Source of the DNA: Tomitella biformata AHU 1821
GTDB lineage: Bacteria > Actinomycetota > Actinomycetes > Mycobacteriales > Mycobacteriaceae
DNA: 64,000 bases
Reading direction: 5' to 3'
Assembly (NCBI RefSeq): GCF_000524475.1
Contig: NZ_BAVQ01000009.1
Location: 1-64,000, forward strand
Part shown: piece after piece, positions 5,460 through 28,865 of the stretch
How positions within the stretch are numbered: position 1 is the first letter of the stretch
How the letters are laid out: each line of letters begins with the position of its first letter
Notes under the pieces: generated by a model
The model's database searches: none
The model's input: the letters and a program-made list of their open reading frames with translations, nothing else
What the model was told of the DNA's origin: nothing
Translations under genes and position numbers: made by a program

Positions 5460-5477
5460 CGTACTGAGTTCAGTTCT
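5460..5477. promoter_or_regulatory. Regulon operator site 1 (OYE gene)
   Basis: CGTACTGAGTTCAGTTCT matches the dyad TGAACTGA-N2-TCAGTTCA at 13 of 16 specified bases, with the inner ACTGA/TCAGT arms perfect. It lies 27 bp upstream of the OYE start codon on the minus strand. Confidence 0.6.
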
Positions 5478-5595
5478 GCTTCATTGAGCGTAGGCCCACC
5501 GGCACCCGCGAGGCAAGGATCGCGAAAGCGCGTAGACAGCCTCGGCTCGCAGCGCACACCGCAGCATGGCCGCGGCCAACGCAATCGCAGCGACG

Positions 5596-5642
5596 TTGAC
5601 AGGCCCCGAGCAGGCAAACTAAAGTGAGTTCGATTCTGGTCA
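5596..5642 (+). promoter_or_regulatory. Promoter and degenerate regulon operator site 6 (acyl-CoA dehydrogenase)
   Basis: TTGACA (5596-5601), a 17-bp spacer, CTAAAG (5619-5624), then TGAGTTCGATTCTGGTCA (5625-5642). The last element matches 11 of 16 dyad positions and keeps the TGA...TCA ends. The order -35, 17 bp, -10, operator is the same as at the other sites of the island. The match is weaker than the other five. Confidence 0.45.
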
Positions 5643-5669
5643 ATGGCCACAGAGGATGGAGTCCACACC

Positions 5670-6827
5670 ATGACAGTCCTAGATATCGACATATCGGCGA
5701 GCATCTCCAGTGTGGTTCCAGTGGTACCGACCACAGAAGAGACCGATCTGCGGGAAGCCGTGCGCTCGCTCTTAGCGGCACAAGATGGAATCGAGCAGAT
5801 CCGCCAGCTCGCCGAACTGGAGCCTGGGTACTCAGTTGAGCTGTGGTCCCTACTCGCCGACTCGATGTCGATCAACACGATCGCCGTCCCGGAATCATCT
5901 GGCGGGCTGGGGTACGGCGTCGCCTACCTCTCGGCAGTCATCGAGGAGTGCGGCCGTGAGCTGCGACCGGAACCGGTGCTCGGCTCCGCTGCCATCGGCG
6001 TGCCGGCGCTGCTGCTTGGACAGGATTCGACGCTCGAGCCGATGCTGTCTGGCGCGCTGAGCGGGCAACTCGTCGTCGCGGCCAGCGCGCTGAGCCGCAA
6101 TTCGGACGCCATCGAGGCCGCCCCCGAGGCCGACGGCTGGCGACTCACCGGCACGGCCCATAATGTGCCAGGCGGGCACTTGGCGGACATCCTCGTGGTC
6201 TCCGCCGAGACGAGCTCGGGCCGGGGCCTTTTCGCGGTGGGCTCGGACTCGCACTTGGATAGGCAGCGTCATGAGTCGATTGATCCAACCCGACCGCTGA
6301 CCTCGATCTCGTTCTCCTCGACCGCCGCGATCGCGTTGTCTCTCGGCACGCAGACCGAGGCGGAGATAACGACCCTCCGAAATCGCGCGGTGATCGCGCT
6401 CGCGGCCGAGAATGTCGGGATCTGCGACCGCCTTTTCGAGATGACCTGTGAGTACACCCGATCACGCAAGCAGTTCGACCGGCCCATCGCCTCATTTCAG
6501 GCGATCAAGCACCGCCTCGCAGACATGCTCCTGAGCGTTGAGCGCGCGCGATCGGCGGCGCTCTACGCCGCCGCCCATTTCGACTACGACCCGTCCACCG
6601 CCCATCTTGCGGCCGCCACGGCCGGGGCTGTGTGCGCGGAGGCGGCGCAGCATATTGCCGCCGAGTCAATCCAACTCCACGGCGGGATCGGATTCACGTG
6701 GGAGCATCCGGTGCATAGCTACTACCGGCGCGTGCTGACCAACGAATCCTTGTACGGCGACGCGACCTCGCATCGGCGAGAGATCGCCCGGCACCTTGGC
6801 CTCGCCAAGAACAGCGATTTGACCTGA
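5670..6827 (+). CDS. Acyl-CoA dehydrogenase family protein
   Basis: A 385-aa FAD-dependent acyl-CoA dehydrogenase fold. The C-terminal signatures RSRKQFDRPIASFQ and IQLHGGIGFTWEHPVHSYYRR are clear. The usual catalytic-Glu motif near the C-terminus (YEGT) is absent and replaced by NESLYGDATSHR, as in subunits that act in heteromeric acyl-CoA dehydrogenases of steroid and terpenoid catabolism. It may therefore need a partner such as the enzyme at 24700-25908. The start at 5670 has GGAG 8 nt upstream; an ATG at 5643 directly abuts the operator and is less likely. The TetR gene follows 51 bp later. Confidence 0.87.
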   Translation: MTVLDIDISASISSVVPVVPTTEETDLREAVRSLLAAQDGIEQIRQLAELEPGYSVELWSLLADSMSINTIAVPESSGGLGYGVAYLSAVIEECGRELRPEPVLGSAAIGVPALLLGQDSTLEPMLSGALSGQLVVAASALSRNSDAIEAAPEADGWRLTGTAHNVPGGHLADILVVSAETSSGRGLFAVGSDSHLDRQRHESIDPTRPLTSISFSSTAAIALSLGTQTEAEITTLRNRAVIALAAENVGICDRLFEMTCEYTRSRKQFDRPIASFQAIKHRLADMLLSVERARSAALYAAAHFDYDPSTAHLAAATAGAVCAEAAQHIAAESIQLHGGIGFTWEHPVHSYYRRVLTNESLYGDATSHRREIARHLGLAKNSDLT

Positions 6828-6830
6828 CTT

Positions 6831-6853
6831 CAAGTTACTTGTGGGTACACTTG
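6831..6853. promoter_or_regulatory. Candidate TetR operator
   Basis: CAAGTTACTTG (6831-6841) is a perfect 11-bp palindrome, followed by a third ACTTG half at 6849-6853. It lies 26-48 bp upstream of the TetR start codon, a typical autoregulation position, and differs from the TGAACTGA dyad of the island. Confidence 0.4.
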
Positions 6854-6878
6854 CATCGATCTACACGAAGGAGAGCAG

Positions 6879-7505
6879 ATGTCCGTGGCACCTGAGGTGC
6901 GTAAAGAGGGGCCACGATCCAAGCGGGCCTCTATCCTGACCGCCGCCATCGAACAGTTCGGCGAGGTCGGATACGAGCACACCAAGTGGGCGTCCATCGC
7001 CGGCGAGGTGGGCATCGGGCAAACTGCGCTGTACCACTACTTCGAGTCGAAGGCGCACTGCCTGCTGACCATCATGCAGTTGGAGCTCACCGATTCAGCC
7101 GCGAGATTCACCACTGGGACAGAGGGAATCGCTGACTCTGAGGAGATGCTCCGGTCTGCAGTAGCCGCATCGCTCCACGGATCCCCCATCGATGCTCTGC
7201 AGCGCCGCATTCTCCAGAATCACATGGACATCCTGGCCTCCCCGCGCCAGTCCGAAAAAGAAGAGGCAGAACGTCTGCACTCACGTGAACTCGTGGCCGA
7301 GATCGAACGAAATTGGACGAATCTGCTGAAGAGCGGGATGGACGACGGGACCTTCAACGCCGATATCGATCCGCGGGTGAGTGCGAGATTAGTGCTGGGT
7401 GTTCTGGTCAGCGTGTGGCGCTGGTACCGGCCCGGGGGTCCGATGCCCCTCGATGAACTGATCGACTCCGTCTCCGACGCAGTCGTTCGAATGGTGCGAG
7501 CCTAA
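6879..7505 (+). CDS. TetR/AcrR-family transcriptional regulator
   Basis: A 208-aa regulator. The N-terminal TetR HTH covers about residues 18-65 (ILTAAIEQFGEVGYEHTKW, then IGQTALYHYFESKAHCL). The remainder is the ligand-binding helical domain, with WRWYRPGGPMPLDEL, a C-terminal feature common to KstR2/FadR-type TetR proteins of lipid catabolism. It is the only regulator in the island, so it is the first candidate for island control, though the motif at its own promoter differs from the repeated dyad. The ribosome-binding site AAGGAG is 8 nt upstream of the ATG. Confidence 0.88.
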   Translation: MSVAPEVRKEGPRSKRASILTAAIEQFGEVGYEHTKWASIAGEVGIGQTALYHYFESKAHCLLTIMQLELTDSAARFTTGTEGIADSEEMLRSAVAASLHGSPIDALQRRILQNHMDILASPRQSEKEEAERLHSRELVAEIERNWTNLLKSGMDDGTFNADIDPRVSARLVLGVLVSVWRWYRPGGPMPLDELIDSVSDAVVRMVRA

Positions 7506-7554: not shown

Positions 7555-7588
7555 CCAGCACCGAGCCCCGGCTAGACCATGCCCATCG

Positions 7589-8623
7589 TTATTCGATCCG
7601 GCACAGGGTCTTGCCCACGTGGCTTCCGTTCAACATCGAGACCAACGCTGCGGGCGCCGCCGCCACGCCAGAGAACACCGTGCTCCGCCAGGACAGGCGC
7701 TTCTCGGCGAGGTGCGCACCGATCTCCGCCTGCATCTCTGCCTCGAGATGCAGGAATGAGCCGGCGCGAAATCCCTGCATGCTGGCCTCTTTGGCGACCA
7801 GCTGGAACAGCTTCGACGGCCCCGGGTCGGGAGTTGATCCGTCGTATTCGGAGACCGCCCCGCACAGCGCTATTCTCCCGCCATGCCGTAGGTTTCCCAC
7901 CGCCGCAGTCAGGTGCCCCGCGCCGACGTTGTCGAAGTACTTGTCGATACCGCTGGGCGCAAGGCGGCGGAGCGCCTCATCAATGGACTCGCTGCGATAG
8001 TCGAACACGTCAGACAACCCGAGTTCACCGGTCAGATAGTCCAGCTTCTGCTGGCCGCCCGCGGAGCCGATCACCCGGCAGCCTCGTAGTTTCGCTAATT
8101 GGGCGGCGATGCTGCCCACCGCCCCTGCGGCCGCCGACACCCAGACGACATCGCCGGGCTGGACCGCAAGCACCCCGACCAATCCGGCGTAGGCCGTGAG
8201 CCCCGAGCTCCCCAGCGGCCCCAGGAACCATTCCAGGGGGAGGCTGCCGGGGCGCACCTTGGCGAGAGCGCCGTAGCCTCCCAGCGAACCGGCGCCCCCG
8301 ACAACTGCATACTCTCTGAAACCGTGCATGTGGGAGACGATGTCCCCCACTTCGAATCCATCGCAACGACTTTCGACCACCGCGCCCAAGGCCAAGCCGG
8401 GCAACGGCTCGTTCAAGCCCACTGGCGGGAGGTAGCCCGGAGGCGTGGCCGCCGCCAGCCGGATCCGTATCGAGGGGTCGACCGATAGCCATAGGTTGCG
8501 GACGAGCACCTCGCCTGCGGCCGGTTCCGGAATTGCCGCGTCAACGACCTCCAAGTCGCCCTCGGCCAATCGGCCATGCGGCCGACGGCGGAGCCGCAGC
8601 ATCTGATTGCCGTCCAGACTCAT
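7589..8623 (-). CDS. NADP-dependent medium-chain reductase (PTGR/CurA type)
   Basis: A 344-aa zinc-independent member of the leukotriene B4 dehydrogenase / curcumin reductase branch. Visible features are LWLSVDPSIRIRL near residue 47, the nucleotide-binding stretch AAAGAVGSIAAQLAKLRG near 155, and YFDNVGAG. These enzymes reduce the double bond of enones with NADPH. It is the last gene of the run starting at 12919, with 28 bp to the preceding SDR. A step reducing an unsaturated cyclic ketone or enoyl compound is plausible here; the substrate is unknown. Confidence 0.87.
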   Translation of the reverse strand: MSLDGNQMLRLRRRPHGRLAEGDLEVVDAAIPEPAAGEVLVRNLWLSVDPSIRIRLAAATPPGYLPPVGLNEPLPGLALGAVVESRCDGFEVGDIVSHMHGFREYAVVGGAGSLGGYGALAKVRPGSLPLEWFLGPLGSSGLTAYAGLVGVLAVQPGDVVWVSAAAGAVGSIAAQLAKLRGCRVIGSAGGQQKLDYLTGELGLSDVFDYRSESIDEALRRLAPSGIDKYFDNVGAGHLTAAVGNLRHGGRIALCGAVSEYDGSTPDPGPSKLFQLVAKEASMQGFRAGSFLHLEAEMQAEIGAHLAEKRLSWRSTVFSGVAAAPAALVSMLNGSHVGKTLCRIE

Positions 8624-8651
8624 TGCTCCACCTTTCGCGGCCGCAGCCGAA

Positions 8652-9437
8652 TCACGCGACGGTGAACTGTCCGCCGTTGGTCAACAGAATCGCTCCAACC
8701 ACATTCGCGGCGGCCGGAGAAGCCAAGTAGAGGATCGACTCGGCGATCTCCTCGGCCGTCGCATAACCTCTGGCCGGCCCAGCCTCCATCGCCGCCCGCA
8801 GGTGCGCCGGCGTGCGCGCAGCCATCCCCGTATCAACTGGCCCAGGCGCCACCACGTTGACCCGAATTCCATACGGCAGCAACTCTTTTGCCGCTGCCTG
8901 GCTCAGCGCATGCACGCCGGACTTAGACGCGGCATAGTGCGGATAGCCCGTGAGAGTGTCGAAGGCCGACGACGAGCCAACTGTCACAATCGCGCCGCCG
9001 CTTCCCCGCATCACTCGGGCACCGGCGCGGAGCAGATGGAAGGTCCCGTCGAGGTTGACGCGCATAACGCGCCGCCACGCCTCGTCGGATAGCCGGCTCA
9101 GCACGTCCACCGGTGCCCCGGATTCGGCTGCCTCGTAGATCCACTTCTTGCTCTCGGGATCGTCCACCCCGGCCGCATGCACGATGACGTCGATTCGGCC
9201 CGACGCCTGGACCGCCTCATCGATCGCGCGGTCCACCTGTGCCGGGTCTCCGACATCTACGCCCAGGGCGGTGGCCCGCTCTAGTTTGCTGGAGGTTGCC
9301 TCCGCTGTGCCGTGCGCGATGTCTACGGCATAGATGTGCTCGGCTCCACGCGCGGCCAACAGTCCGCATGTCGCGGCCCCGATCCCCGAGCCAGCCCCGG
9401 TGACAAGGCAAACTTTTCCCGCGAACTGATCCTTCAC
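8652..9437 (-). CDS. SDR-family oxidoreductase
   Basis: A 261-aa classical short-chain dehydrogenase. The cofactor motif TGAGSGIG is at about residues 14-21, the catalytic Ser lies in VGSSSAF, and YAASKSG carries the YxxxK pair. The C-terminal AILLTNGGQFTVA is the usual end. The acidic residue VDIAHG after beta-2 suggests NAD(H). It lies 29 bp downstream of the first substrate-binding protein gene in the same minus-strand operon and probably oxidises a secondary alcohol of the pathway. Confidence 0.87.
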   Translation of the reverse strand: MKDQFAGKVCLVTGAGSGIGAATCGLLAARGAEHIYAVDIAHGTAEATSSKLERATALGVDVGDPAQVDRAIDEAVQASGRIDVIVHAAGVDDPESKKWIYEAAESGAPVDVLSRLSDEAWRRVMRVNLDGTFHLLRAGARVMRGSGGAIVTVGSSSAFDTLTGYPHYAASKSGVHALSQAAAKELLPYGIRVNVVAPGPVDTGMAARTPAHLRAAMEAGPARGYATAEEIAESILYLASPAAANVVGAILLTNGGQFTVA

Positions 9438-9466
9438 TGATATCTCCCTAGTGCGGCCAGTGACAC

Positions 9467-10498
9467 TTAGCGGAAGAGTGTCTCTAGTTCGGTGCGGTAG
9501 CGCTGAGCGCCCTCACCGACGGTTACTTCGAGGTTCTGATCTGGAACTTCCTGCGCAGCGGCCAGTGACCCCGTCACTCCGGGAAGAACGGAGGCATACC
9601 CCACGGAGGTCGCTTCCTGGCCGGGCACGGTCACCATGAAGTTCGCCAATACCTGGGCCGCGTTCGGGTGCGGGGAGGTCCCCATCACCAGTCCGTACCA
9701 CTTGGCACCCCAAATGTGCTCGCCAGCGGTCCACTCGACCGGAGCTCCGGCCTCCTTGGAGGGAAGCATCGGGTCAGCCATCAGCCCGGCGCTGATCTCG
9801 CCTGATGCCAGTGCCTGTCCGAGCGGCTGGTTGCTGGGGTAGATCCGCGGCTCCTGCGCGGCCAGGTCGGTGAGGTATTCCCGACCGCCATAGTTGGCCT
9901 CGATATGCGAGTAGTAGTCAAGGTAGGTCGGGGACGTCGCGGGATTGACGATGCCGACCTTGTCCTTTAGCGCCGGATCCAGTAGGTCTGCGGGCTCCTC
10001 AATGCCGTTCGGCAGCAAGTCCGTGTTCCAGCCCAGGCCCAGGATGACCGCGCCCTCAAGGAAGAACCGATCGTCGACGATGCTGGTGGCGCGATTGTAT
10101 TCGGGATTGTCGAAGTCGGGGCCGATGATCGAGGCCGCGACATCGGAGTCCGCGTTGGCTTGCATCCACGAGACGTCGGTGATGACGGCGACGTCGCCGA
10201 TGCCCTTACCCGAACGGGTCTCGGCGTCCATTTTCGCCAGGAGGTCGGAGTCGACGCCGCGGACCACTTCGAGGTCGATCTCCGGGTAGGCCGTCTCGAA
10301 AGCCGTCTCGAGTGCTGCCAGCCTGGGGGCAGCCTGGGTCGAGTAGATCGTCACCTTGCCCTCGTTATTGGCAGCGGCAACGACGTCCTCCCAGCTGCCC
10401 TCGACGGGGCCGGTGGTCCCAGTGGAACCGCCGCAGGCGGCAACGGCCACCGCGGTCACTGCCATGACGGCCAGAAGCCGAATTTTTCCAGCGTTCAT
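9467..10498 (-). CDS. ABC importer substrate-binding lipoprotein (family 1), paralogue 1
   Basis: A 343-aa extracellular solute-binding protein. Its signal sequence ends in a lipobox (AVAVAAC, Cys about 20), so it is membrane-anchored outside the cell. The fold resembles Fe(III)/organic-acid binding proteins (GKVTIYSTQ at the start of the mature domain, GLGWNTDLLP in the middle, HPNAAQVLANFMV towards the end). It retains a tyrosine cluster (TYLDYYSH) at the usual ligand site where its two paralogues differ. I start at MNAGK (10498), whose ATG overlaps the TAA of the flavoprotein gene by one base. No permease is adjacent; it presumably shares the importer at 14883-17767. Confidence 0.85.
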   Translation of the reverse strand: MNAGKIRLLAVMAVTAVAVAACGGSTGTTGPVEGSWEDVVAAANNEGKVTIYSTQAAPRLAALETAFETAYPEIDLEVVRGVDSDLLAKMDAETRSGKGIGDVAVITDVSWMQANADSDVAASIIGPDFDNPEYNRATSIVDDRFFLEGAVILGLGWNTDLLPNGIEEPADLLDPALKDKVGIVNPATSPTYLDYYSHIEANYGGREYLTDLAAQEPRIYPSNQPLGQALASGEISAGLMADPMLPSKEAGAPVEWTAGEHIWGAKWYGLVMGTSPHPNAAQVLANFMVTVPGQEATSVGYASVLPGVTGSLAAAQEVPDQNLEVTVGEGAQRYRTELETLFR

Positions 10499-11841
10499 TA
10501 TGATGCCTTTCCTGCAATTGATGTGTTGGCTGCGGCGAGACCGAAGACGAGCGCAGAGGCGATACCGCCCGCGTATGCGCGGCGCCACAGTCCGCCGGTG
10601 TCTGAGCCTGCCGCTAGCAGGCCTGGAATCGGATCGCCGAGATCGGTCAAGACCCGAGCGTTTTTGTCGATGCGGAGTCCCTGGAAGGGGAAGGTGATCG
10701 CCGGAATGGTCTCAATGACGTAGTACGGCGGGGTGGTGAGCGGTTCCCGGTCACGCAGACGCCCGGGCGTCGGTTCGCCAGTGGCGACCTGGGCGTTGAA
10801 CTCTTCGATGGCCGTGGCGATCGCGGTCCCGTCGTAGCCCCATTCCTCCGGAAGATAGGCCAGCTCGGAGAGCGTCTCAGCCTTCCCGACCCGCCCACCC
10901 CGCTTGCTGGCCAGCGCGAACTTGTCGACGGCGACGGCACCGTCGACGTACGAGCCGAGCATCCACTGCTGGTAGACGCGCTCATCGGCGATGAGCAGGC
11001 CCCGCGACTCGGGTTGGTCGAGCAGCTCCATGGTGGTGAGGTGGTCCCCGAGCGTCTCATCGGTGAAGCGCTCGTTGGCGAGGTTGAACAGCAGCGCGTG
11101 CTCGCTGTAGTAGAGCGAGAGGTCGACGAAGTCCGCGTCGGTGAATGCGACGCCGCTGGGGATCAGATGGCCGTAGAAGCCCGCATTCTCGAATCCGGTT
11201 GCTGCACCCGCCGCAACCCCTAGCCGATAGCCAGTCCCCGTGCTGCGGGGGTTCGAGCGCAGCGGCATCTGCGCCGCCGCCGGCCCCAGCAGCTCCGTCA
11301 ATAACTCCGGGCTGCCCTGGAACCCGCCGGTGGCGAGCAGGACGTGGTCCGCCAGCACGTCTTGCGCCACGCCCGCCCGGGTCACCGCAATACCGGTGAC
11401 GACGCCGTCGTCAGTGAGTAGGCCGTCCACAGTCGTCTCGAGCCAGACAGCCCCGCCTGCATCAAGCGTCTTCCGCCGGCAGTTGTCAACGTACTGGTTG
11501 GTGTCGAATTTATGACCGCGCCCGCCAAAGTCAAGGATGCGCTGGGAGGCGCCCACCTCGACCCCCATCGACGCGATCCATTGCACACCCTCGTCGAAGC
11601 CGTCCACCAACGCGTGCCGGAGGGTCTCATCGCCAGCCGGGTTCGCGCGGTCCATCACCTCCCGATCGGGCGCGGTCCACGCGTAACCGGCGTACCGCGC
11701 CGATCCGCCAACCTCGCCGCCAATCTCCACCACCAGCACAGACTGCCCGGCCGTCGCCGCGCGCGCGGCCGCGGTCAACCCAGCCATGCCTGCTCCGACC
11801 ACCACGAGGTCATACCTGTTCATGCTCTGTTGACTACCCAT
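10498..11841 (-). CDS. FAD-dependent oxidoreductase (fumarate reductase / ketosteroid dehydrogenase-like flavoprotein)
   Basis: A 447-aa flavoprotein with an N-terminal dinucleotide fold (VVVGAGMAGLTAA at about 11-23 of this start) and the C-terminal FAD contact AGSDTGGLWRRAYAGGIASALVFG. The family includes 3-ketosteroid-delta-1-dehydrogenase, tricarballylate dehydrogenase and fumarate reductases. The length is nearer to TcuA-like proteins (about 450-470) than to KstD (510 or more). It probably introduces or removes a double bond next to a carbonyl. The ATG at 11841 is preceded by AAAGGA 5 nt upstream; the in-frame MNRYD at 11823 is the alternative. Confidence 0.83.
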   Translation of the reverse strand: MGSQQSMNRYDLVVVGAGMAGLTAAARAATAGQSVLVVEIGGEVGGSARYAGYAWTAPDREVMDRANPAGDETLRHALVDGFDEGVQWIASMGVEVGASQRILDFGGRGHKFDTNQYVDNCRRKTLDAGGAVWLETTVDGLLTDDGVVTGIAVTRAGVAQDVLADHVLLATGGFQGSPELLTELLGPAAAQMPLRSNPRSTGTGYRLGVAAGAATGFENAGFYGHLIPSGVAFTDADFVDLSLYYSEHALLFNLANERFTDETLGDHLTTMELLDQPESRGLLIADERVYQQWMLGSYVDGAVAVDKFALASKRGGRVGKAETLSELAYLPEEWGYDGTAIATAIEEFNAQVATGEPTPGRLRDREPLTTPPYYVIETIPAITFPFQGLRIDKNARVLTDLGDPIPGLLAAGSDTGGLWRRAYAGGIASALVFGLAAANTSIAGKAS

Positions 11842-11875
11842 TACCGTCCTTTAGCTGGTCTTTACAGGTCTTCCA

Positions 11876-12919
11876 CTACTGAATAAACATCTGGCCCCAC
11901 TGCTGCTGAAACTTCGTCACCGCCTCGGGCGTCAGAGCATCGATGTCCGGGATCGGGGTGTCTTGTGCGCGCGCGACCGCGCCGGGGATATCGGGCAGCG
12001 CGGACGCATAGCCGGCGGAGAGCGCTTCCTGGCCCTCCGGTGTCACCATGAAGTTCGCCAAGACCTGGGCCGCGTTGGGGTGCGGTGCGGCCGCGAGCAC
12101 ATGGCTGTACCAGGGCGTGCCCCAGGCTGGTTCCGGCAGCGTCCAGCCGACGGGCGCGCCCGTGGCCTGCTCCCGCACCAGCGGCTGCACCATCGGGGTG
12201 GCCACGATCTCGCCGGAGTTCAGAGCCTGCGCGATACCGAGTGAGCTCGGATAGATACGCGGAGCCAGCGCGGCCAGGCGTTCATTGAAGTCACTGCCCC
12301 AGTTCTGGTCGAAGAACTGGAATTGGTCGATCACCGCCGCGAATCCGGACGGATTGACCACGCCGATCTTTCCGCGCAAGGACTCGGTCAGCAGATCCTG
12401 CGGCGTTTCGAGTCCCCCAGGGAGTAGCTCGGTGTTCCACCCGAGCGCCATGACGGCCGCACTCGTGAGGAACAGTTTGTCATCAAGGACGCTGCGATCA
12501 CGCTCATACACGGGGTTGTCAAAGGCCGGCCCCACGAGGTTCAACGAGTAATCGCCGGACTCCGCCGCCCGCGTGGTCCACGCCGGATCTGAGGTCATGT
12601 GCACATCCGCGGTGCCCTTCCCCGTCCGCTGCTCCGTCTCCACCCGCGGGTTGATCTCGACATCGGTACCCCGGGTGAACTCCATGGAGATGCCCGGATA
12701 CGCCGACTCGAACGCCTCCTTCAGCAACTGCAGATTGTCCGGATGCTGCGTCGAGTACAGATAGACGCTGCCCTCCTGCTCCGCCGCCGCCACAACGTCC
12801 GCCCAGCTCCCGGCCACCGGCCCAGACGCGGTCTCGGCTGCGGAACTGCAAGCGGCTGCGGCCGCAACCGCTACCACCGCGCCAAGAGCTCCTGCGATCC
12901 GCCGAATACGCTTGCGCAC
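11876..12919 (-). CDS. ABC importer substrate-binding lipoprotein (family 1), paralogue 2
   Basis: A 347-aa lipoprotein with signal sequence and lipobox AAAAAC (Cys about 24). The mature domain starts with GSWADVVAAAEQEGSVYLYSTQ-like sequence shared with the other two paralogues. The central ligand region reads IDQFQFFDQNWG, without the tyrosine pair of paralogue 1. It is the first gene of the operon that also holds the flavoprotein, paralogue 1, an SDR and the MDR reductase. Its promoter (TTGACA, 17 bp, TTAGTT) runs straight into regulon dyad 12934-12951. Confidence 0.86.
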   Translation of the reverse strand: MRKRIRRIAGALGAVVAVAAAAACSSAAETASGPVAGSWADVVAAAEQEGSVYLYSTQHPDNLQLLKEAFESAYPGISMEFTRGTDVEINPRVETEQRTGKGTADVHMTSDPAWTTRAAESGDYSLNLVGPAFDNPVYERDRSVLDDKLFLTSAAVMALGWNTELLPGGLETPQDLLTESLRGKIGVVNPSGFAAVIDQFQFFDQNWGSDFNERLAALAPRIYPSSLGIAQALNSGEIVATPMVQPLVREQATGAPVGWTLPEPAWGTPWYSHVLAAAPHPNAAQVLANFMVTPEGQEALSAGYASALPDIPGAVARAQDTPIPDIDALTPEAVTKFQQQWGQMFIQ

Positions 12920-12933: not shown

Positions 12934-12980
12934 TAAACTGATTTCAGTTCAAACTAATCGACCGGCCGGTGTGGTGTCAA
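12934..12980 (-). promoter_or_regulatory. Promoter and regulon operator site 2 (substrate-binding protein 2 operon)
   Basis: On the minus strand TTGACA (12980-12975), exactly 17 bp, TTAGTT (12957-12952), then TGAACTGAAATCAGTTTA (12951-12934). The dyad matches TGAACTGA-N2-TCAGTTCA at 15 of 16 positions. An operator directly downstream of the -10 would cover the transcription start, so repression is expected. The site may also affect the divergent alcohol dehydrogenase gene starting at 13029. Confidence 0.7.
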
Positions 12981-13028
12981 TCACTCACTGACCTGACCCG
13001 CAGCCTCCTAGCCGAAAGAAGGGCACCA

Positions 13029-14108: not shown

Positions 14109-14873
14109 CTAGGCGCAGGTCCAGCCTCCGTCGACATACAGCTCGCTGCCGGTGACGTACCGTGCGTCGTCACCGGCAAGGTAGGCCACCGCGGCGGCGA
14201 TGTCCTCCGCCTTGCCCAGCCGCCCCATCGGAGTGTTCGCGAGCATCGCCGCATGGCGATCTGTGCCCTCATACCGCTCCATCAACTGGTCTGTGCCGAT
14301 GAACCCAGGGTGCACCGAGTTCACGCGCACGCCCTTCTGCGCCCAATGGAGTGCAGCGTTCTTGGTCATCGTGCGCACCGCGCCCTTCGCGGCGGCATAA
14401 GCCAGGCTGTTGCCCAAACCGCCGACGGAGCCCAGGATCGAGCAGATGTTGACGACCGAGCCCCCACCGGTCTCCTCGATCGCCGCCCCGGCATGCTTCA
14501 TCCCAAGCCAGGTGCCGGTTTGGCTGATATCGATGACCTTTTGGTACGTCTCGAGCTCCTCGTCCACAACGCTTGCGAGGCTGCCTGCGGCGGCGTTGTT
14601 GATCAGCACATCGAGTGTGGAGTATTTGTCCATGACGGCCGCGATCACGCCCGCCCACTCGTCCTCACTCGAGATATCCAATGTCGCACCGTAGTGCCGC
14701 GCGTGACCGGGCAGGCCCGCGATGAGGTCGTCGATCGGTGTGCCGACCAGGTCGGTGGCCACAACCGCAGCGCCCTCCTGAGCCAGGCGGCGGGCGATTT
14801 CGCCCCCCAGCCCACCGGTGGCGCCGGTGACCAGCGCCACCTTTCCCTCTAGTCGAGTCTCGCCTACTGCCAT
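14109..14873 (-). CDS. SDR-family oxidoreductase
   Basis: A 254-aa classical SDR with TGATGGLG at about residues 15-22, the NAA motif LINNAAAG, YAAAKGA (YxxxK), and the C-terminal SELYVDGGWTCA. Similar to FabG, glucose and cyclic-alcohol dehydrogenases. It is the last gene of the operon beginning with substrate-binding protein 3, placed 9 bp after the permease gene. The substrate is unknown; oxidation of a ring or beta-hydroxyl is plausible. Confidence 0.87.
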   Translation of the reverse strand: MAVGETRLEGKVALVTGATGGLGGEIARRLAQEGAAVVATDLVGTPIDDLIAGLPGHARHYGATLDISSEDEWAGVIAAVMDKYSTLDVLINNAAAGSLASVVDEELETYQKVIDISQTGTWLGMKHAGAAIEETGGGSVVNICSILGSVGGLGNSLAYAAAKGAVRTMTKNAALHWAQKGVRVNSVHPGFIGTDQLMERYEGTDRHAAMLANTPMGRLGKAEDIAAAVAYLAGDDARYVTGSELYVDGGWTCA

Positions 14874-14882
14874 CTGGTCCTC

Positions 14883-16616
14883 CTATAGCTTGCTGAGCAC
14901 GTTGCGGCCACCAACCAGCATGGCCAGGATTACGCCGATGCTGGTCACCGCGGTCATCAGGAGCGCCATGGCTGCGACCAGCGGATAGGAGCCGTTCTGC
15001 CACATGTCATAGAGCAGTGTCCCCATGACCTGGGTGGTCGATGCCCGCACTAGCAGGGAGGCGGCGAACTCGTGCGTGAGCAGGATGAACATCAGCGCCA
15101 CCGCACCTAGAATCGCCGGCCGCATCAGCGGGAGCATGATGCGCAGGTTGGTCACCATCGGCGAGGCCCCGCTGGTGGCGGACGCCTCGGTATAGGCATT
15201 GCCCAGCGACAGCATCGCCGTCATCTGCATTCGAGTTGCGAACGGCAGCATCAAGACGATGTAGACCAGGATGATCACTGTGCGAGTCCCGTAGAGGATC
15301 AGCGGCGGCTCGGTGTAGGTGAGCAGGAACCCCACGCCGAAGATCACGGCCGGGATACCCAGCGGCAGCGAGGCCATCAGGTCGCCGATCAGGCTGAGAA
15401 TCTTGAAACGCCGACCGCGCACCAGAAGGTTCGCCAGCATGTAGCCGATCGGCACACACACGGCCACGGCACCGAGCGAGGTGACCACGCTGGTGATCAC
15501 CGATTCCATGACGGCCGGATCGTCCACCAGCGCCCGGAAGTTGTCGAGCGTCAGCAGGCTCCAGGACAGTGAGCTCGACCAGTATGGCGTCAGAGACACG
15601 ATGACCAGACCGATAATGGGAATCACCAGGGCGAATAGCGCGAACACCATGATGGTGACGCTTGCCCAGCGCGCACGGCCACCGGATGGCGCGAAGGCTT
15701 TGCCGCCGTGCGTGACGAAGCGACTCTGGTTTCCCAGCAGGTATTTTTGCACCAGGACCAACACGATGCCGAAGATCACCAGCGGAGATCCCGCGGCAGC
15801 CGCGGCAGCGAAGTCTGAGGGCGATTCCGACACTCTTCGGAACATGTCGGTGGTGAGCACGTTGACGCCGTTGTTCTGTCCGAGCAGCAGGGGGCCGGTG
15901 AACTGTCCAAGGCCGAGCAGGAACGCGATTCCGCCGCCGTAGACCAGAGACGGGCGCAGCAGCGGCAAGACCACGCGGAAGAAGACCCCGACGGTGGAGG
16001 AGCCGCTGATCTGCGCGGCCTCCAGATGCTCGCTGCTGATGTTCTGCATACCGGCGCTGACGAACAGATAGACGAAGGACGTCAGCCCAAAACCGGTGAG
16101 GATGATGATCCACGGCACCGTGTACACGTCGATGGGGCCGGTATCGCTATCGCTCCACCACATGATCTTCCGCAGGATCACATTGAGGTACCCCGGGCCC
16201 GGCGAGAGCAGGAAGGCCCAGCCGACGATGTTCGCGACGGCGGGCATCACGATCGGCATGATCGGGATCACCCGCAGGAATCCCATGCGATCGGGCAACC
16301 GGCTCGCGGCAAAGGCGAGCAGCGTTCCGAGGACCATGGCAATCACCAAGGAGCCCAACGCCAATGCCACAGTGGTCCAGATGGTCTCCGCGATATCGAA
16401 CCGGCCGTACTGGCTCTTATATCCCTGGGCGCCGTCCTCGAACGCCAAGATCTGCAGCCGGACCATCGGCACGACTACGAGGTATGCCAGCACCGCCAAG
16501 AGAATGCTGTAGCCGATCCGCGCACGCCAGTGCGCCGACACGGAGAACGTCCGGAACCCGGTGGGGGCTGGTGGCGTTGTCGGCGTCGCGGACGCTGCTG
16601 GCGCCATGGTGCTCAT
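14883..16616 (-). CDS. ABC importer permease, fused two-domain type
   Basis: A 577-aa inner-membrane protein made of two homologous permease halves of about six helices each, like FbpB/AfuB ferric transport permeases. Each half has an EAA-type cytoplasmic loop: LEAAQISGSSTVGVFF in the first and TEASATSGASPM in the second, where the ATPase docks. The start ATG overlaps the ATPase stop codon (ATGA). With the ATPase and three binding lipoproteins it forms the island's only complete ABC importer. The cargo is probably an organic acid pathway substrate rather than iron, judged from context. Confidence 0.87.
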   Translation of the reverse strand: MSTMAPAASATPTTPPAPTGFRTFSVSAHWRARIGYSILLAVLAYLVVVPMVRLQILAFEDGAQGYKSQYGRFDIAETIWTTVALALGSLVIAMVLGTLLAFAASRLPDRMGFLRVIPIMPIVMPAVANIVGWAFLLSPGPGYLNVILRKIMWWSDSDTGPIDVYTVPWIIILTGFGLTSFVYLFVSAGMQNISSEHLEAAQISGSSTVGVFFRVVLPLLRPSLVYGGGIAFLLGLGQFTGPLLLGQNNGVNVLTTDMFRRVSESPSDFAAAAAAGSPLVIFGIVLVLVQKYLLGNQSRFVTHGGKAFAPSGGRARWASVTIMVFALFALVIPIIGLVIVSLTPYWSSSLSWSLLTLDNFRALVDDPAVMESVITSVVTSLGAVAVCVPIGYMLANLLVRGRRFKILSLIGDLMASLPLGIPAVIFGVGFLLTYTEPPLILYGTRTVIILVYIVLMLPFATRMQMTAMLSLGNAYTEASATSGASPMVTNLRIMLPLMRPAILGAVALMFILLTHEFAASLLVRASTTQVMGTLLYDMWQNGSYPLVAAMALLMTAVTSIGVILAMLVGGRNVLSKL

Positions 16617-17767
16617 GCGTGGCCTCCGGCTCCGCTGGACACGGAGTCCACGGCGCCGTCGACGTCAGGGGCGAATACGCGCAGAGCTGACGGCGAGAAA
16701 CTCACCACCATGGGGTCACCGGTCTGGCTCTTCTTCAGCGTGGCGCTGTGCTCGACGGCCGGGGCTCGCAGGATGAGCTTGTCGGCGCCGCTTCGGACGG
16801 TGACGTCGTAGTAGCGGCCCCCGTACTCGTAGTCGACGAGTTCCGCGTGCAGGGCCACATTCCCTGCGGGCACCTCGGAGGCGGAAGCGTGCAGGGAGAC
16901 GTCGTCGGGACGCAAACGCCCAATCGCCGCGTCAGCGCGGTCGGGAACCCCGCGGACCACCGCACGGCTGAGGTCCACCTGGTCCCCAGCAGCTGTCTCC
17001 CACCCGTGGGGCCCACGGCGGAGTTCAATCCGGTTGGACATACCGATGAAGGCCGCCACGTACTCGGATACCGGGTTCTCGAACACGGCCTCGGGAGCCT
17101 CGTACTGCTCGATCTTCCCGGACTTCATGATCGCCACTCGGTCACCGAGCGCGAACGCCTCAGACTGATCGTGGGTGACGAACACTGCGGTGAACCCCAG
17201 CTGCTGGTGGAGCCGGTGGATCTGCGACCGCACTTGGTCCCGCAGCCTCGCATCGAGGTTGCTGAGCGGCTCATCGAACAACACCAGATCCGGCTTGGCG
17301 ACCAGTCCCCGCGCCACGGCGACGCGCTGCTGCTGGCCACCACTGAGCTGCGACGGGAAGCGGTCCAAGAGGCCCTCGCAGTCGACCATCGCGGCGGCCG
17401 TCTCGACCGAGCCGTCGCGCATCTCCGACCGCATCTTCCGGACCTTGAGCGGGTAGCCGATGTTTCTGCGCACGGTCATGTGTGGCCAGAGCGCATACGA
17501 CTGGAAGACCATGCCGATGTTGCGCTTGTGCGCCGGCACGTCAACGTTCGCGGCGGCATCGAACATCTTCTGCCCCTTGAAGGTGATCTCGCCGCCCTGC
17601 GGTGTCTCCAGGCCAGCGAGGCACCTGAGCGTCGTGGTCTTCCCACATCCGCTGGGCCCGAGGAGGACGAGGAATTCCCCGTCCTCGATGGGGAGGTCCA
17701 GATTGTCGACAACCACGTTGTCGCCATACTTCTTAACCAGGCCATTTACTGTGAATTGCGTAGTCAT
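16613..17767 (-). CDS. ABC importer ATP-binding protein
   Basis: A 384-aa CUT/Fe-type ATPase: Walker A GPSGCGKT at 37-44, signature LSGGQQQR near 138, Walker B LVLFDEP and the H-loop in FVTHDQSEAF. The C-terminal 130 residues form a TOBE-like regulatory domain. I start at MTTQF (17767), with GGAG 8 nt upstream and the ATG overlapping the SDR stop; the longer open frame upstream reads through the SDR gene out of frame. It energises the permease at 14883-16616. Confidence 0.9.
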   Translation of the reverse strand: MTTQFTVNGLVKKYGDNVVVDNLDLPIEDGEFLVLLGPSGCGKTTTLRCLAGLETPQGGEITFKGQKMFDAAANVDVPAHKRNIGMVFQSYALWPHMTVRRNIGYPLKVRKMRSEMRDGSVETAAAMVDCEGLLDRFPSQLSGGQQQRVAVARGLVAKPDLVLFDEPLSNLDARLRDQVRSQIHRLHQQLGFTAVFVTHDQSEAFALGDRVAIMKSGKIEQYEAPEAVFENPVSEYVAAFIGMSNRIELRRGPHGWETAAGDQVDLSRAVVRGVPDRADAAIGRLRPDDVSLHASASEVPAGNVALHAELVDYEYGGRYYDVTVRSGADKLILRAPAVEHSATLKKSQTGDPMVVSFSPSALRVFAPDVDGAVDSVSSGAGGHA

Positions 17768-18588
17768 TTCCCGCTCTCCGCGTTCTTCTTCTTCTTCGAG
17801 GTATGCACGCCTGCGGCGGTTCCACCGTCGACTAGGAGGTCCACACCGTTGACATAGCTGCTGCGACGATCGACCAGGAACAGGATCGCCTCTGCCACCT
17901 CGCCTGGCGATCCGCGGCGCTGGAGCGGGATGCTGCGCACATAGGCTTCCACATCGTCCGCAGCAAAATCTGGTAAGTCGGTGATACCGGTCTCGATGCT
18001 GCCAGGGCACACGCTGTTTACTCTAATTCCCTTGTGCGCCAACTCAATTGCAGCCACTCGACTTAGGGCCCGTACCCCGAACTTAGCCGCGCCATACGCG
18101 CCGAGCTCCGCAGTGGCCAGCACGCCGCGGAGCGAGGAGATGTTCACCACCGCGCCGCCCGGCACCATGTGGCGCGCGGCTGACCGCACACCGAGGAAGG
18201 TGCCCACCAGGTTGAGGTCGATCATTCGTCGGAAGGACTCGAGCGAGGTCTCCGCCAGGGGCGCCTTCATCGCCGCCCCTGCCGAGTTCACCAAGACCGT
18301 CAGCGGAGCCCCATCCGCTGCCATCTGGTCCACGGCCGCATCCCACGATTGCTCATCTCGCACGTCTAGGACTCGGAATCGATCTGCGGCTCCGAACTCC
18401 GCCGCGGTGCGACGCCCCTGCTCCTCATCGATGTCGGTGGGGTACACAAGCGCGCCCTCGCTGGCCAGCAAAGCCGCCGTCGCCGCCCCGATGCCGTTTG
18501 CCGCGCCGGTCACGAGCACGCCGACCCCGCGCAGGCCGCCCGCGGGCGCCACTCCGGCCGGACCGCCGGAGACTTCGGATGAGGTCAC
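17764..18588 (-). CDS. SDR-family oxidoreductase
   Basis: A 274-aa SDR starting at GTG 18588 (VTSSEVSGG), which overlaps the stop of the substrate-binding protein gene as GTGA. Signatures: GVLVTGAANGIGAA at about 22-35, LVNSAGAAM, ISSLRG, and YGAAKFG. The C-terminus VDLLVDGGTAAGVHTSKKKKN carries an unusual lysine tail after the normal SDR end. It is embedded between binding-protein and ATPase genes, which ties transport to the first oxidation steps. The upstream ATG at 18852 would overlap the previous gene by 260 bp and is rejected. Confidence 0.84.
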   Translation of the reverse strand: MTSSEVSGGPAGVAPAGGLRGVGVLVTGAANGIGAATAALLASEGALVYPTDIDEEQGRRTAAEFGAADRFRVLDVRDEQSWDAAVDQMAADGAPLTVLVNSAGAAMKAPLAETSLESFRRMIDLNLVGTFLGVRSAARHMVPGGAVVNISSLRGVLATAELGAYGAAKFGVRALSRVAAIELAHKGIRVNSVCPGSIETGITDLPDFAADDVEAYVRSIPLQRRGSPGEVAEAILFLVDRRSSYVNGVDLLVDGGTAAGVHTSKKKKNAESGK

Positions 18589-19619
18589 TGGAACACCTCG
18601 GACCACTGCTGCGAGTACTCGCGGACCTTGTCCGGAGTGAGGTCGGCGGTGTTCGGCATCGTGATCTCCTGGGCCCGGGCCACAGCGCCGGGGATATCTG
18701 GCAACACAGCGGCGTAGCCGGAGTTCAGCGCGGTCTGGCCCTCTTGGCCCAACATGAAGTTGACGAGCACCTGCGCGGCGTTGGGATGCGGCGCGACATT
18801 GAGGACTTGGGTGTACCACGGGGTGCCCCACGGCGAGGACGGCAGCGCCCAATCGACGGGCGCGCCACTGTCCACTTCGGTGACGAGGGGCTGGACTGAG
18901 GGCGCCACTGAGATCTCACCGGAGGTCAGCGCCTGCGCGACGCCTAGTGCGCTCGGGTAGACGCGGGGGCCGAGCTCGGCGACCTGGCTCCAGAAGTCCT
19001 GCCCGTAGGTGTCCGCGTAGAAGCGGTACATGTCCACGTAGGAGGCGATCCCGGTCGGGTTGACGATCCCGATCTTGCCGCTGTAGGCAGGGTTGATGAT
19101 GTCCTCCGGCTTGCTGAGCCCGTCTGGGACCGCGTCGGTGTTCCAGCCGAGCGCGAACACCGCCGCGCTGGTCAGGGCGAACTTGTCATCGATCACGCTG
19201 GCTGACCGGTCGTACTCGGGTGCATCCAGATTCGGAGCCACCAGGTCCGTGGAGTAGGTCCCGGACTTCGCCGCGATGTCGATCCACGCCGCGTCCGTGA
19301 GCATGTGGACGTCGGCGATGCCCTTCCCGGTCTTATTCTCGGTCTCCACCCGTGGGTTGATCTCCGGGTCGGTCCCCCGCACGAAACTCATCGTGATCTC
19401 GGGGTATTCGGACTCGAAGGCCGCCTTGAGCGCTTCCAGGTTCGCCGGCTTCTGGCTTGAATAGAGCATCACCTCGCCCTCTTCGTTGGCTGCCGCGACG
19501 ATCTCGTCCCAGCTGCCATCCACGGGAGCAGTAGCACCACCACCGCTGCTGCACGCCGAGACTCCAAGGACGACGGCGGCCGACAGCAACGCTGTCACCG
19601 CACGCGATAACTTCATCAT
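18585..19619 (-). CDS. ABC importer substrate-binding lipoprotein (family 1), paralogue 3
   Basis: A 344-aa lipoprotein with lipobox GVSAC (Cys about 23). The mature part opens GSWDEIVAAANEEGEVMLYSSQ-like, clearly paralogous to the proteins at 9467 and 11876, and carries GLSKPEDIINPAYSGKIGIVNP. The ligand region is YVDMYRFYADTYG, different again from the other two. It leads the operon with the SDR, ATPase, permease and second SDR, so it is probably the primary receptor of the transporter. Confidence 0.87.
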   Translation of the reverse strand: MMKLSRAVTALLSAAVVLGVSACSSGGGATAPVDGSWDEIVAAANEEGEVMLYSSQKPANLEALKAAFESEYPEITMSFVRGTDPEINPRVETENKTGKGIADVHMLTDAAWIDIAAKSGTYSTDLVAPNLDAPEYDRSASVIDDKFALTSAAVFALGWNTDAVPDGLSKPEDIINPAYSGKIGIVNPTGIASYVDMYRFYADTYGQDFWSQVAELGPRVYPSALGVAQALTSGEISVAPSVQPLVTEVDSGAPVDWALPSSPWGTPWYTQVLNVAPHPNAAQVLVNFMLGQEGQTALNSGYAAVLPDIPGAVARAQEITMPNTADLTPDKVREYSQQWSEVFQ

Positions 19620-19730: not shown

Positions 19731-19779
19731 TGAACCGATCTCAGTTCAGGACTCTAACGTGGTCATGTTGTGATGTCAA
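19731..19779 (-). promoter_or_regulatory. Promoter and regulon operator site 3 (ABC importer operon)
   Basis: On the minus strand TTGACA (19779-19774), 17 bp, TAGAGT (19756-19751), 2 bp, then TGAACTGAGATCGGTTCA (19748-19731), 15 of 16 dyad positions. The layout is the same as at 12934-12980 and 22263-22310. Confidence 0.7.
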
Positions 19780-19821: not shown

Positions 19822-21450
19822 TCAGCGCTGGCGTCGCAACCGGCGGCGAGGCGCTCGAATGCGGCCGAAACCCGTTGGCTCCATGAGGAATCGACGCGTG
19901 GAGTCCTCGACGAGGTGCCCGGCCAATCGAGCCCTAACCCGGCCTTCCGGGATGGTCAACCGATCCCGTTCTTGGGCCAGAAAGTCATCCCAGACATGGA
20001 AGGTGGAGAGCTCCACAAACGTCCCTGGGTCGCTCATGTCCTCCCAAACGACGCAATCCACGGCTCCGAGCCGGAGCCGCGATAGCCGAACCTCGCGCAT
20101 ATCCCGGACGAACTCGGCACGCCGATCCGGTCGGACCACATAGCGCGTCTCCACTCCCGCCCTCCGGCCACGCATATCGGAGTCAGCCACCCGGTCCCAC
20201 TCCGGGTCGGAGCTGCCCGCGGGCTCCGGCACCAGCTCGTCGCCGCCACGAATCCGAACTCGGAGGAAGGTCGCGCTGGCGGCGCCCATCAAAACCGCGC
20301 TGATGAACAGCGCTGGCACCAGTCCAAGCCAGTCCGCCACGAGGCCCCAAGTCATGGCGCCGGCGGCCTGCACCGCCTGCCCGGTCACGATCAGGATCCC
20401 GAGCACTTGCGCCCGAATCCACGCCGGCACCACATGGTGCGCCGCCACCATCCACGTGCTCTGCACCGCCACCCAAGCGGCGCCCGCCACCACCATCAGC
20501 CCAGACACACCTGGAACCGAGGGGATCACCGCCATGCCCGCCAACACAACGGCGTAGGCGATGGCGCCAAGCGCCACAAACGAATTCCAGGACAAGCGGC
20601 GACGCAACGGCATCAGCAGCAAGGTCCCCATCACTGCGCCGATCCCGATGGCACCGGAGACCAGCCCGAATTCGAAGGTGGTCGCATGCAATCGCTCATT
20701 CGCAACTATCGGGAGCAGCGCCCACAGCGCGCTAGACGGCACTCCAAACGCGACCATCAAGAGCAGCAGAGTGCGCATCCAGCTCGAGTGCCGGATGAAT
20801 CGGGTTGCCGTCGCAATGTGCTGGGTCCAGGAGTCGGGCGCGCGCCCTCGCCCCGAGTCGCGCGGCACCTGCCAGGCGGCGATCGCGGCGCACACCGCGA
20901 ACACCACGGCGACCGCCACAAATGTGGCCGAGGTGCCGAACGTCGCCAGGATCGCCCCGCCGATCACCGGCCCCACCGCGCGCGCACCGTTGAAGACGGC
21001 GCCATCGAGCGCTGGCACCACAGCCATCAGCGGCCGGTCGACAAGATGGGGCAGCAGCGCCTGCCAGACGATCGCCATGGTCGCCAGACCCGCGCCGGCC
21101 ACGAATACCGTGGACATAAGCACGGCGACCCCGACCACGTCCAGCGTAGCCAAGATCGCGGCTACCGCCGAGATCCCCGCCAGCGCCACCGACGCGGAAA
21201 CGAGCAGCAGCCGGTGCCCGACCACATCCGCCACAGCGCCGATCGGCAGGCCGAGGAGGAAGAAGGGCAGGCTCGCGGCCACCTGAACCGTGGCGACGAC
21301 GGTCGCAGACTCGCCCCCCACGGTGAGAATCCACTGCGCCGCAAGGACGATGATCCAGACGCCCACGGAAATGCCGAGCTCAACGGGGACCAGGAGCCGG
21401 AAACGACGCACCCGCAACGGCGCGAACAACCCCACTTGACCCCCGCTCAT
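19822..21450 (-). CDS. MFS transporter of the DUF894/EntS-like family
   Basis: A 542-aa protein with about 12 membrane segments over residues 1-420. The C-terminal soluble domain of about 110 residues (VETRYVVRPDRRAEFVRDM, then FHVWDDFLAQERDRLT) resembles the ferredoxin-like monooxygenase fold often attached to this MFS_3 group. These proteins usually export small molecules. It follows the two SnoaL-fold genes by 37 bp in a minus-strand operon governed by regulon site 4. It may export or relieve a toxic intermediate; direction is not provable from sequence. Confidence 0.82.
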   Translation of the reverse strand: MSGGQVGLFAPLRVRRFRLLVPVELGISVGVWIIVLAAQWILTVGGESATVVATVQVAASLPFFLLGLPIGAVADVVGHRLLLVSASVALAGISAVAAILATLDVVGVAVLMSTVFVAGAGLATMAIVWQALLPHLVDRPLMAVVPALDGAVFNGARAVGPVIGGAILATFGTSATFVAVAVVFAVCAAIAAWQVPRDSGRGRAPDSWTQHIATATRFIRHSSWMRTLLLLMVAFGVPSSALWALLPIVANERLHATTFEFGLVSGAIGIGAVMGTLLLMPLRRRLSWNSFVALGAIAYAVVLAGMAVIPSVPGVSGLMVVAGAAWVAVQSTWMVAAHHVVPAWIRAQVLGILIVTGQAVQAAGAMTWGLVADWLGLVPALFISAVLMGAASATFLRVRIRGGDELVPEPAGSSDPEWDRVADSDMRGRRAGVETRYVVRPDRRAEFVRDMREVRLSRLRLGAVDCVVWEDMSDPGTFVELSTFHVWDDFLAQERDRLTIPEGRVRARLAGHLVEDSTRRFLMEPTGFGRIRAPRRRLRRQR

Positions 21451-21487
21451 CGCGGAGCCGGCCTTCCCCTCGGCGCCCGGCCGACCA

Positions 21488-21862
21488 TCAGGCGAAGTCG
21501 ACCTCGGGCGTTCGGGCGATCAGCAACCTCCGCACCTGCCCGGCACTGTCAATTTGCGCCGTCGCGGTGAAGGACGCTTCGAACTCCCCCGCCCGGGTGG
21601 TCCGCCCAAGCACCAACTCATGGCCGGATGCCGCCACACCGACGTCGACGTGGTGGATCAGGGTGCTCTTCTCCCGTTGCGCGAGGTAGCCGATCAGCCC
21701 ATCGCGGTCGCCGACAAATTCCGCAGACTGTCCATCCCCCTTCGAGAACTGGACCGACATCACGAAATCACTGGTGATCATGTCCAGGACGTGATCGGGC
21801 GCGTCGGAGTCCATGTGGGCGAACCACTGGGCGAGCACCGGAGTCGTCATTGCGTTGGTCAT
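21488..21862 (-). CDS. SnoaL-like (NTF2-fold) protein
   Basis: A 124-aa single-domain cone-shaped NTF2-fold protein (opening LAQWFAHMDSDAPDHVLDMITSDF). The fold includes ketosteroid isomerase, limonene-epoxide hydrolase and SnoaL cyclases, but catalytic residues cannot be assigned safely. Its ATG overlaps the stop of the preceding SnoaL-like gene, so the two are translationally coupled and may form a heteromer. Isomerase, hydratase or epoxide hydrolase activity in the pathway is possible. Confidence 0.75.
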   Translation of the reverse strand: MTNAMTTPVLAQWFAHMDSDAPDHVLDMITSDFVMSVQFSKGDGQSAEFVGDRDGLIGYLAQREKSTLIHHVDVGVAASGHELVLGRTTRAGEFEASFTATAQIDSAGQVRRLLIARTPEVDFA

Positions 21863-22224
21863 CGAACCTCTCCTGCCGGTAGAACCGAGAACTCGGCGCT
21901 GAATGCGACCTGGTAGCGGTCGATCAGGCCGTCCGCGCCGATATGCATGACGCCGGTGAAGTAGCCCGTGGTGCGCTCGCCGTTCTCCGTCACCTCACCC
22001 TGCGCGAACTCCAGGTCCCCGTCGGCGGCGGCGCGCAGGACCACATGCTGACGGTCCACCGGGGGCCGGCCGCGCAGGTAGCTGAGCATCTCTGACCTCC
22101 CCCTACCCCGATTTTCGCCGGTCGGGAGGATCATCGCGAACTCCACGTCTTCGGCGAGGAGAGCTGTCGCCTCCTCCAGCCGCCCGCTGTCGAGCGTCGC
22201 GTAGTACTTCTCCATTTTTGCCAT
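21859..22224 (-). CDS. SnoaL-like (NTF2-fold) protein
   Basis: A 121-aa NTF2-fold protein (YYATLDSGRLEEATALLAEDVEF opening, IGADGLIDRYQVAF strand near the end). It is first in the SnoaL-SnoaL-MFS operon. Start 22224 (MAKMEK) directly abuts regulon dyad 4 and has no Shine-Dalgarno; the -10-like TAAATT is 6 nt upstream, which fits leaderless translation. MEK at 22215 is the alternative. Function as for its neighbour, unknown. Confidence 0.75.
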   Translation of the reverse strand: MAKMEKYYATLDSGRLEEATALLAEDVEFAMILPTGENRGRGRSEMLSYLRGRPPVDRQHVVLRAAADGDLEFAQGEVTENGERTTGYFTGVMHIGADGLIDRYQVAFSAEFSVLPAGEVR

Positions 22225-22259
22225 AAAGTGAATTTAGTTCAGGACTTCCCCGCTGTCGA
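22224..22259 (-). promoter_or_regulatory. Leaderless promoter and regulon operator site 4 (SnoaL-MFS operon)
   Basis: On the minus strand TCGACA (22259-22254), 17 bp, TAAATT (22236-22231), 6 nt, ATG. The dyad TGAACTAAATTCACTTTA (22241-22224) contains the -10, ends on the first base of the ATG and matches the consensus at 12 of 16 positions. Confidence 0.55.
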
Positions 22260-22262
22260 GTC

Positions 22263-22310
22263 TTGACATCCATCACACCGCAAGATAGAACTTGAACCGA
22301 ATCCAGTTCA
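22263..22310 (+). promoter_or_regulatory. Promoter and regulon operator site 5 (enoyl-CoA hydratase operon)
   Basis: TTGACA (22263-22268), 17 bp, TAGAAC (22286-22291), 1 bp, then TGAACCGAATCCAGTTCA (22293-22310), which matches 14 of 16 dyad positions. It drives the long plus-strand operon 22331-32590. The -35 regions of this and the divergent SnoaL promoter are only 3 bp apart. Confidence 0.7.
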
Positions 22311-28851: not shown

Positions 28852-28865
28852 CGGAGATGACAAAT

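Follow-up and report, generated by a model that had tools for sequence, protein, structure and literature searches.

The question raised by this locus is which protein reads a DNA signal that recurs throughout it. The window analyzed, a stretch of 64,000 nucleotides from contig NZ_BAVQ01000009.1 of Tomitella biformata AHU 1821, contains a cluster of uptake and degradation genes whose promoters carry the inverted repeat TGAACTGA-N2-TCAGTTCA, a dyad of two arms separated by a spacer of two nucleotides (N2). A preliminary description of this DNA regarded the dyad as an island-wide operator, left its repressor unassigned and ascribed a different palindrome to the promoter of the local TetR-family gene (6879 to 7505, plus strand). 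The operator and the transcription units it was said to cover were upheld by our analysis. The second part did not stand, since the dyad recurs, in a weaker form, at -59 of the TetR promoter. We consider it highly probable that the TetR protein encoded at 6879 to 7505 has the dyad as its operator; it would then be an autoregulated repressor of the cluster.

At up to 3 mismatches, five dyads were present in the window, compared with 0.02 expected, and five were reached in none of 100 dinucleotide shuffles. The genome-wide scan suggested in the preliminary description (assembly of 4.7 Mb in 112 contigs) returned 10 dyads, half of them in the window, and the reversed pattern was found 0 times. 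Five of the six sites reported before were confirmed: 12934 to 12951 (1 mismatch), between a substrate-binding protein (SBP) operon on the minus strand and an alcohol dehydrogenase gene on the plus strand; 19731 to 19748 (1 mismatch), at the SBP/ABC importer operon; 22293 to 22310 (2 mismatches), at the degradation operon on the plus strand; 22224 to 22241 (3 mismatches), which touches the listed start codon of the SnoaL-MFS operon on the minus strand; and 5460 to 5477 (3 mismatches), at the OYE/FadH-like gene on the minus strand, where a TTGCCT/TACGCT promoter was read by eye. Three of them show the reported order of TTGACA, 17 bp, -10 and dyad, with gaps of 0, 2 and 1 bp before the dyad at 12934 (minus strand; -35 at 12980 to 12975, -10 at 12957 to 12952), 19731 (minus strand; 19779 to 19774 and 19756 to 19751) and 22293 (plus strand; 22263 to 22268 and 22286 to 22291), respectively. 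In the window, the dyad lies on the -10 element or just behind it.

The sites were also scored with a matrix derived from relatives, which was built without the window sequence; its training sites, yet, were chosen with the earlier consensus, so that it is not wholly blind. The eight top matches in the window fell into seven promoter regions and ranked in the order 12934 (31.6), 22224 (27.5), 19731 (25.7), 22293 (25.6), 6820 (21.1), 5460 (20.2), 5615 (17.9) and 5620 (17.5), whereas ten shuffled windows had top scores of 8.0 to 16.8. The sixth reported site, a weaker dyad at 5625 to 5642, was in the wrong register. It scored 9.6, within the shuffled range, and was dropped because two overlapping dyads at 5615 to 5632 and 5620 to 5637, each with 5 mismatches to the consensus, outscored it; these occupy the -10 of the acyl-CoA dehydrogenase promoter, which has TTGACA at 5596 to 5601. 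The match at 6820 to 6837 (4 mismatches) belongs to the TetR gene. It precedes the TetR start codon by 59 bp, shares letters with the acyl-CoA dehydrogenase stop codon and scored 19.7 when the matrix was trained without TetR promoters. The TetR promoter and the target promoters carry the same palindrome, the copies at the targets being stronger than that at 6820.

When named genomes were scanned with the TetR protein, 139 relatives were retrieved, and the loci of the 80 best were analyzed. The relatives range from Gordonia (up to 76% identity), Nocardia, Rhodococcus, Williamsia, Dietzia and Nocardioides to Streptomyces and Pseudonocardia, and among the loci listed most have the gene set of the window, with little of it in four (L081, L103, L114 and L117). 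Conservation in homologous clusters, on which the preliminary description had made its proposal depend, was observed: the 80 loci contained 192 dyads at up to 3 mismatches, compared with 0 of the reversed pattern (317 versus 25 at up to 4 mismatches). The spacing was specific as well, with 114 dyads at N2 and 14 at N7 (up to 2 mismatches), and 0 at each of N0, N1, N3 to N6 and N8. Both spacings emerged again from an enumeration that did not use the earlier motif, in which ACTGA-N7-TCAGT (33 versus 0.3) and ACTGA-N2-TCAGT (32 versus 0.3) were the top dyads in 61 nonredundant loci after masked-N rows had been set aside. Nor did the dyads behave as random positions: only 1 of the 173 strong sites in these 61 loci was inside a gene whose product matched a window protein, 30 had no such gene within 250 bp, and the remainder were upstream of genes for ECH (enoyl-CoA hydratase), SBP, MBL-fold protein, OYE, SnoaL, TetR, ACAD (acyl-CoA dehydrogenase) and other matched proteins. 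On a plasmid of Rhodococcus sp. BH4, outside the training set, 20 matches scored at least 12; 17 were intergenic, 2 were within other genes, and one was 58 bp before the TetR gene, within the end of the ligase gene.

Several further observations were made in the relatives. TetR orthologues are carried by large plasmids in two Rhodococcus records and one Streptomyces record (L162, L163 and NZ_CP089607.1); the cluster was seen on L162 and dyads on both L162 and L163, and the plasmid record NZ_CP109481 covers a stretch without listed features. In one genome (G293), a perfect dyad at C2:5363183-5363200, about 295 kb from the TetR gene, is a possible distal member of the regulon. The reversed control pattern ACTTGACTNNAGTCAAGT occurred in 1 to 4 copies in many genomes of one genus (g29), where it is possibly the operator of another regulator.

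The link between dyad and TetR was examined at the TetR promoters of the 61 loci, with a matrix trained without such promoters. A dyad scoring at least 12 was present within 200 bp upstream in 37/61, compared with 203/6669 blocks; at a score of at least 18, the counts were 12/61 and 157/6669. An alignment of the TetR promoter with eight relatives, chosen from loci in which a dyad had already been seen at that place, had 10 of its 12 invariant columns within the dyad stretch. In 26 sequences chosen from the set, orthologues 54 to 75% identical to the window TetR, 20 of the 23 residues of the recognition region (residues 44 to 66) were invariant and the other 3 nearly so, as would be expected if the operator were held constant. 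The palindrome which the preliminary description presumably meant for the TetR promoter, without spelling out its letters, is CAAGTNACTTG; it was rejected, since none of the 80 loci contained it exactly in the 200 bp before TetR.

Co-occurrence was assessed in 401 genomes of the family, T. biformata included, with TetR presence set at E ≤ 1e-35 and a close dyad defined by up to 2 mismatches. Close dyads were found in 51/57 TetR-positive but in only 72/344 TetR-negative genomes (Fisher, 9e-24; the genomes are related, and p-values serve as guides only). Several results, gathered here, weigh against the assignment to the local TetR. When TetR-positive genomes were split by the importer permease, the close dyad was present in 45/45 with a permease of at least 67% identity and in 6/12 without it, so that the association is mostly with the cluster as a whole; the value of 6/12 compares with the 72/344 background at p 0.03, again among related genomes. 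The 80-locus set was itself anchored on TetR, and 24 of the 61 TetR promoters, 13 of them from Streptomyces, scored below 12. The four other genomes of the genus compared had no TetR, permease or close dyad, and hence gave no within-genus footprint. Finally, a dyad scoring 21.5 (3 mismatches) was found on contig C97 (L005, 1501 to 1518), far from the cluster and 60 bp upstream of the listed start of another TetR gene, of the TetR_C_31 type. This dyad may be the own operator of that gene, cross-talk or chance; together with the 6/12 result, it somewhat lowers our confidence.

One alternative is that a regulator from another part of the genome, such as another TetR, reads the dyad, and that the local protein controls something else. 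In its favor, besides the C97 site, the genome encodes 13 other TetR relatives (E ≤ 0.001), and 19 of the 344 TetR-negative genomes contain at least two close dyads. However, none of the other TetR relatives of T. biformata exceeds 38% identity in the matched part, whereas the dyad tracks orthologues of 51 to 77% identity and stands at the promoter of the local TetR itself; furthermore, 10 of 11 TetR-negative genomes with a more distant permease (up to 59%) have no close dyad. In eight of the 19 genomes, which were inspected, all sites had 2 mismatches and the TetR relatives were at most 33% identical. Two of them (G096 and G244) each have two identical dyads 15 kb apart, which are unexplained, and in a third (G277, 74% complete) the sites are paired at a distance of 60 bp, as in a true cluster, and TetR may be missing there because of gaps. 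The five sites of T. biformata outside the window each have 3 mismatches and score 8.3 to 21.5, two of them as high as 6820 and 5460; the three best comprise the C97 site and two within apparent coding sequence (C110 and C111), and the others are on C34 and C107. On balance, we judge control from elsewhere to be unlikely. It is more improbable still that the local TetR binds the dyads and activates, or both activates and represses. Activation is known for some TetR-family proteins, yet the position of the dyad favors occlusion: in the window it is on or behind the -10, and in the relatives TTGACA (at least 5 of 6 positions) peaks 28 to 31 bp upstream of it (28 of 79 matches, a count made without a shuffled control). 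We infer that TetR binds the dyads and represses rather than activates, and these two observations make promoter occlusion the likely mode.

Under the proposed assignment to the local TetR, a TetR dimer, possibly two overlapping dimers, would in the absence of inducer occupy the dyads at the seven promoter regions of the cluster and keep RNA polymerase from the -10 or start-site region, while the weaker 6820 dyad would let TetR limit its own synthesis. After import and activation of the substrate, an intermediate in CoA thioester form would bind the ligand domain of TetR and release the protein from DNA, and uptake and degradation would be switched on together. Binding of two dimers per pair of overlapping dyads is hinted at by a second dyad at a 5-bp offset, which is more common than the self-similarity of the motif predicts (mean score of 7.6 and 40% at 10 or above, compared with means of 2.1 to 3.8 and 13 to 20% for drawn null sites), although the 5-bp overlap is partly built into that self-similarity. 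A possible model is the dimer-of-dimers DNA complex of DarR (8svd), a near fold neighbor that, unlike the proposed role of the window TetR, is a c-di-AMP regulator. We offer as a tentative and rather doubtful extension that two TetR dimers bind the 5-bp-offset dyads, which overlap by half a turn, as a unit, the quality of the second dyad grading repression, in a so far unreported regulon of an uncharacterized uptake and degradation pathway that Gordonia, Streptomyces and genera between them would share, in part through large plasmids.

The TetR protein has the domains TetR_N (PF00440) and TetR_C_24 (PF17932) above cut-off, and its structural model (mean pLDDT of 91.4) matches TetR folds. PfmR, DarR and KstR2 are the nearest, and AibR and FadR, further down the list, are structure entries with CoA ligands. 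The protein failed the equivalog tests for KstR (NF033703, 24.8 bits versus a cut-off of 280) and Bacillus FadR (NF053878, 49.1 bits versus 200), and the models listed included none for KstR2. PMC13176608 describes binding of CoA derivatives by KstR2 and acyl-CoA ligands for FadR. Since KstR2, AibR and FadR answer to CoA thioesters, and in view of the cluster enzymes (ligase, acyl-CoA dehydrogenases, hydratase and thiolase), the inducer is probably an acyl-CoA. That the inducer is instead the free substrate or another small molecule, which would leave the repressor assignment unchanged, is a serious if less probable alternative; the regulon includes the importer, and DarR, a c-di-AMP binder, is among the nearest folds, whereas the fold neighbors with CoA-type ligands, the AMP-ligase and the several acyl-CoA enzymes of the cluster speak for a thioester.

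The 5460 site precedes the flavoprotein gene (3498 to 5456, minus strand), whose start is more likely the ATG at 5432, preceded by AAAGG as read by eye, than the listed TTG at 5456, and the 5615/5620 pair precedes the acyl-CoA dehydrogenase gene (5643 to 6827, plus strand). Gene order suggests that SBP, FAD_binding_2, SBP, SDR and MDR reductase genes (7589 to 12919, minus strand) form an operon behind 12934; that dyad ends 18 bp upstream of the divergent zinc alcohol dehydrogenase gene (12969 to 14090, plus strand). Behind 19731 is the presumed importer operon of SBP, ABC ATPase, fused permease and SDR (14109 to 19619, minus strand), and behind 22224 are genes for a SnoaL-like protein, an unknown protein and an MFS protein (19822 to 22224, minus strand). 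The presumed degradation operon (22331 to 32590, plus strand; right end putative) follows 22293 and encodes, in order, ECH, thiolase, ACAD, an APH-type kinase, ACAD, two SDRs (the second read by eye), an AMP-ligase and an MBL-fold protein. Matches to steroid-, cyclohexane- and 4-hydroxyacid-type families occurred together in the cluster, all below curated cut-offs, and did not single out a substrate class.

Two features of the degradation operon deserve mention. At 25905 to 28102, the APH-type kinase and an acyl-CoA dehydrogenase lie side by side, an arrangement like that of the two domains in mammalian ACAD10/11 (match to PDB 8v3v). These enzymes handle 4-hydroxyacyl-CoAs, and by analogy the pathway may pass through a 4-hydroxyacyl-CoA. 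The thiolase open reading frame (23191 to 24675) has about 110 extra N-terminal residues; because an OB-fold protein and the thiolase are separate adjoining genes in Rhodococcus sp. BH4, the window thiolase may be a fusion or have a mis-set start.

Comparison with known systems showed partial likenesses. For AbyC, a TetR-type regulator of the abyssomicin cluster, the perfect palindrome TGAACTGATCAGTTCA has been proposed as operator (PMC3625739); both arms are identical to those of the window dyad, but that operator has no spacer and lies next to a drug exporter gene within an antibiotic cluster. The likeness noted here is one of operator arms. The corresponding N0 form of the TGAACTGA arms had no match in the window at up to 3 mismatches; in the 80 loci it was found 0 times at up to 2 mismatches and 2 times at 3. 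KstR2, which controls late cholesterol degradation, is likewise a TetR repressor of a CoA-thioester pathway and similar in fold (4w97, TM 0.80/0.85), but it is about 25% identical to the window TetR, its gene set differs, and its operator, AnCAAGnnCTTGnT, differs from the window dyad. The best NCBIfam match of the window TetR (5.6e-13) is the model of Bacillus subtilis FadR, the operator of which, TGAATGA..TCATTCA, has a similar TGA/TCA layout; its regulon of fatty-acid beta-oxidation genes is unlike the window. PfmR of Thermus thermophilus is the best fold match (3vpr_B, TM 0.78/0.86, 30% identity), the likeness noted here being one of protein fold. The site TTRNACYNRGTNYAA, given for Thermus FadR in PMC5597230, is different from the window dyad. 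The mycobacterial BkaR (PMC3920632) is a TetR that regulates its own gene, and a conserved palindrome marks both that promoter and those of its targets, as in the design proposed here; its operator core, GTTA(N)T(N4)A(N)TAAC, and its branched-chain keto-acid genes are unlike the window. By this analogy, the proposed design is that of an ordinary autoregulated TetR catabolic repressor. A literature search of titles and beginnings of abstracts, with subscription papers outside its scope, gave no account of the N2 dyad or of the cluster. As far as that search shows, the N2/N7 dyad is new, as are its assignment to a repressor and the regulon, which belongs to an uncharacterized pathway.

With the assignment proposed here, an orphan operator gains a repressor, and its motif delimits an uncharacterized catabolic gene set conserved across actinomycetes, comprising the importer, ligase, kinase-plus-dehydrogenase pair, thiolase and reductases. 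The substrate would become testable through these genes, the acyl-CoA inducer predicted above and the clean operator, and the TetR-operator pair may be usable as a biosensor.

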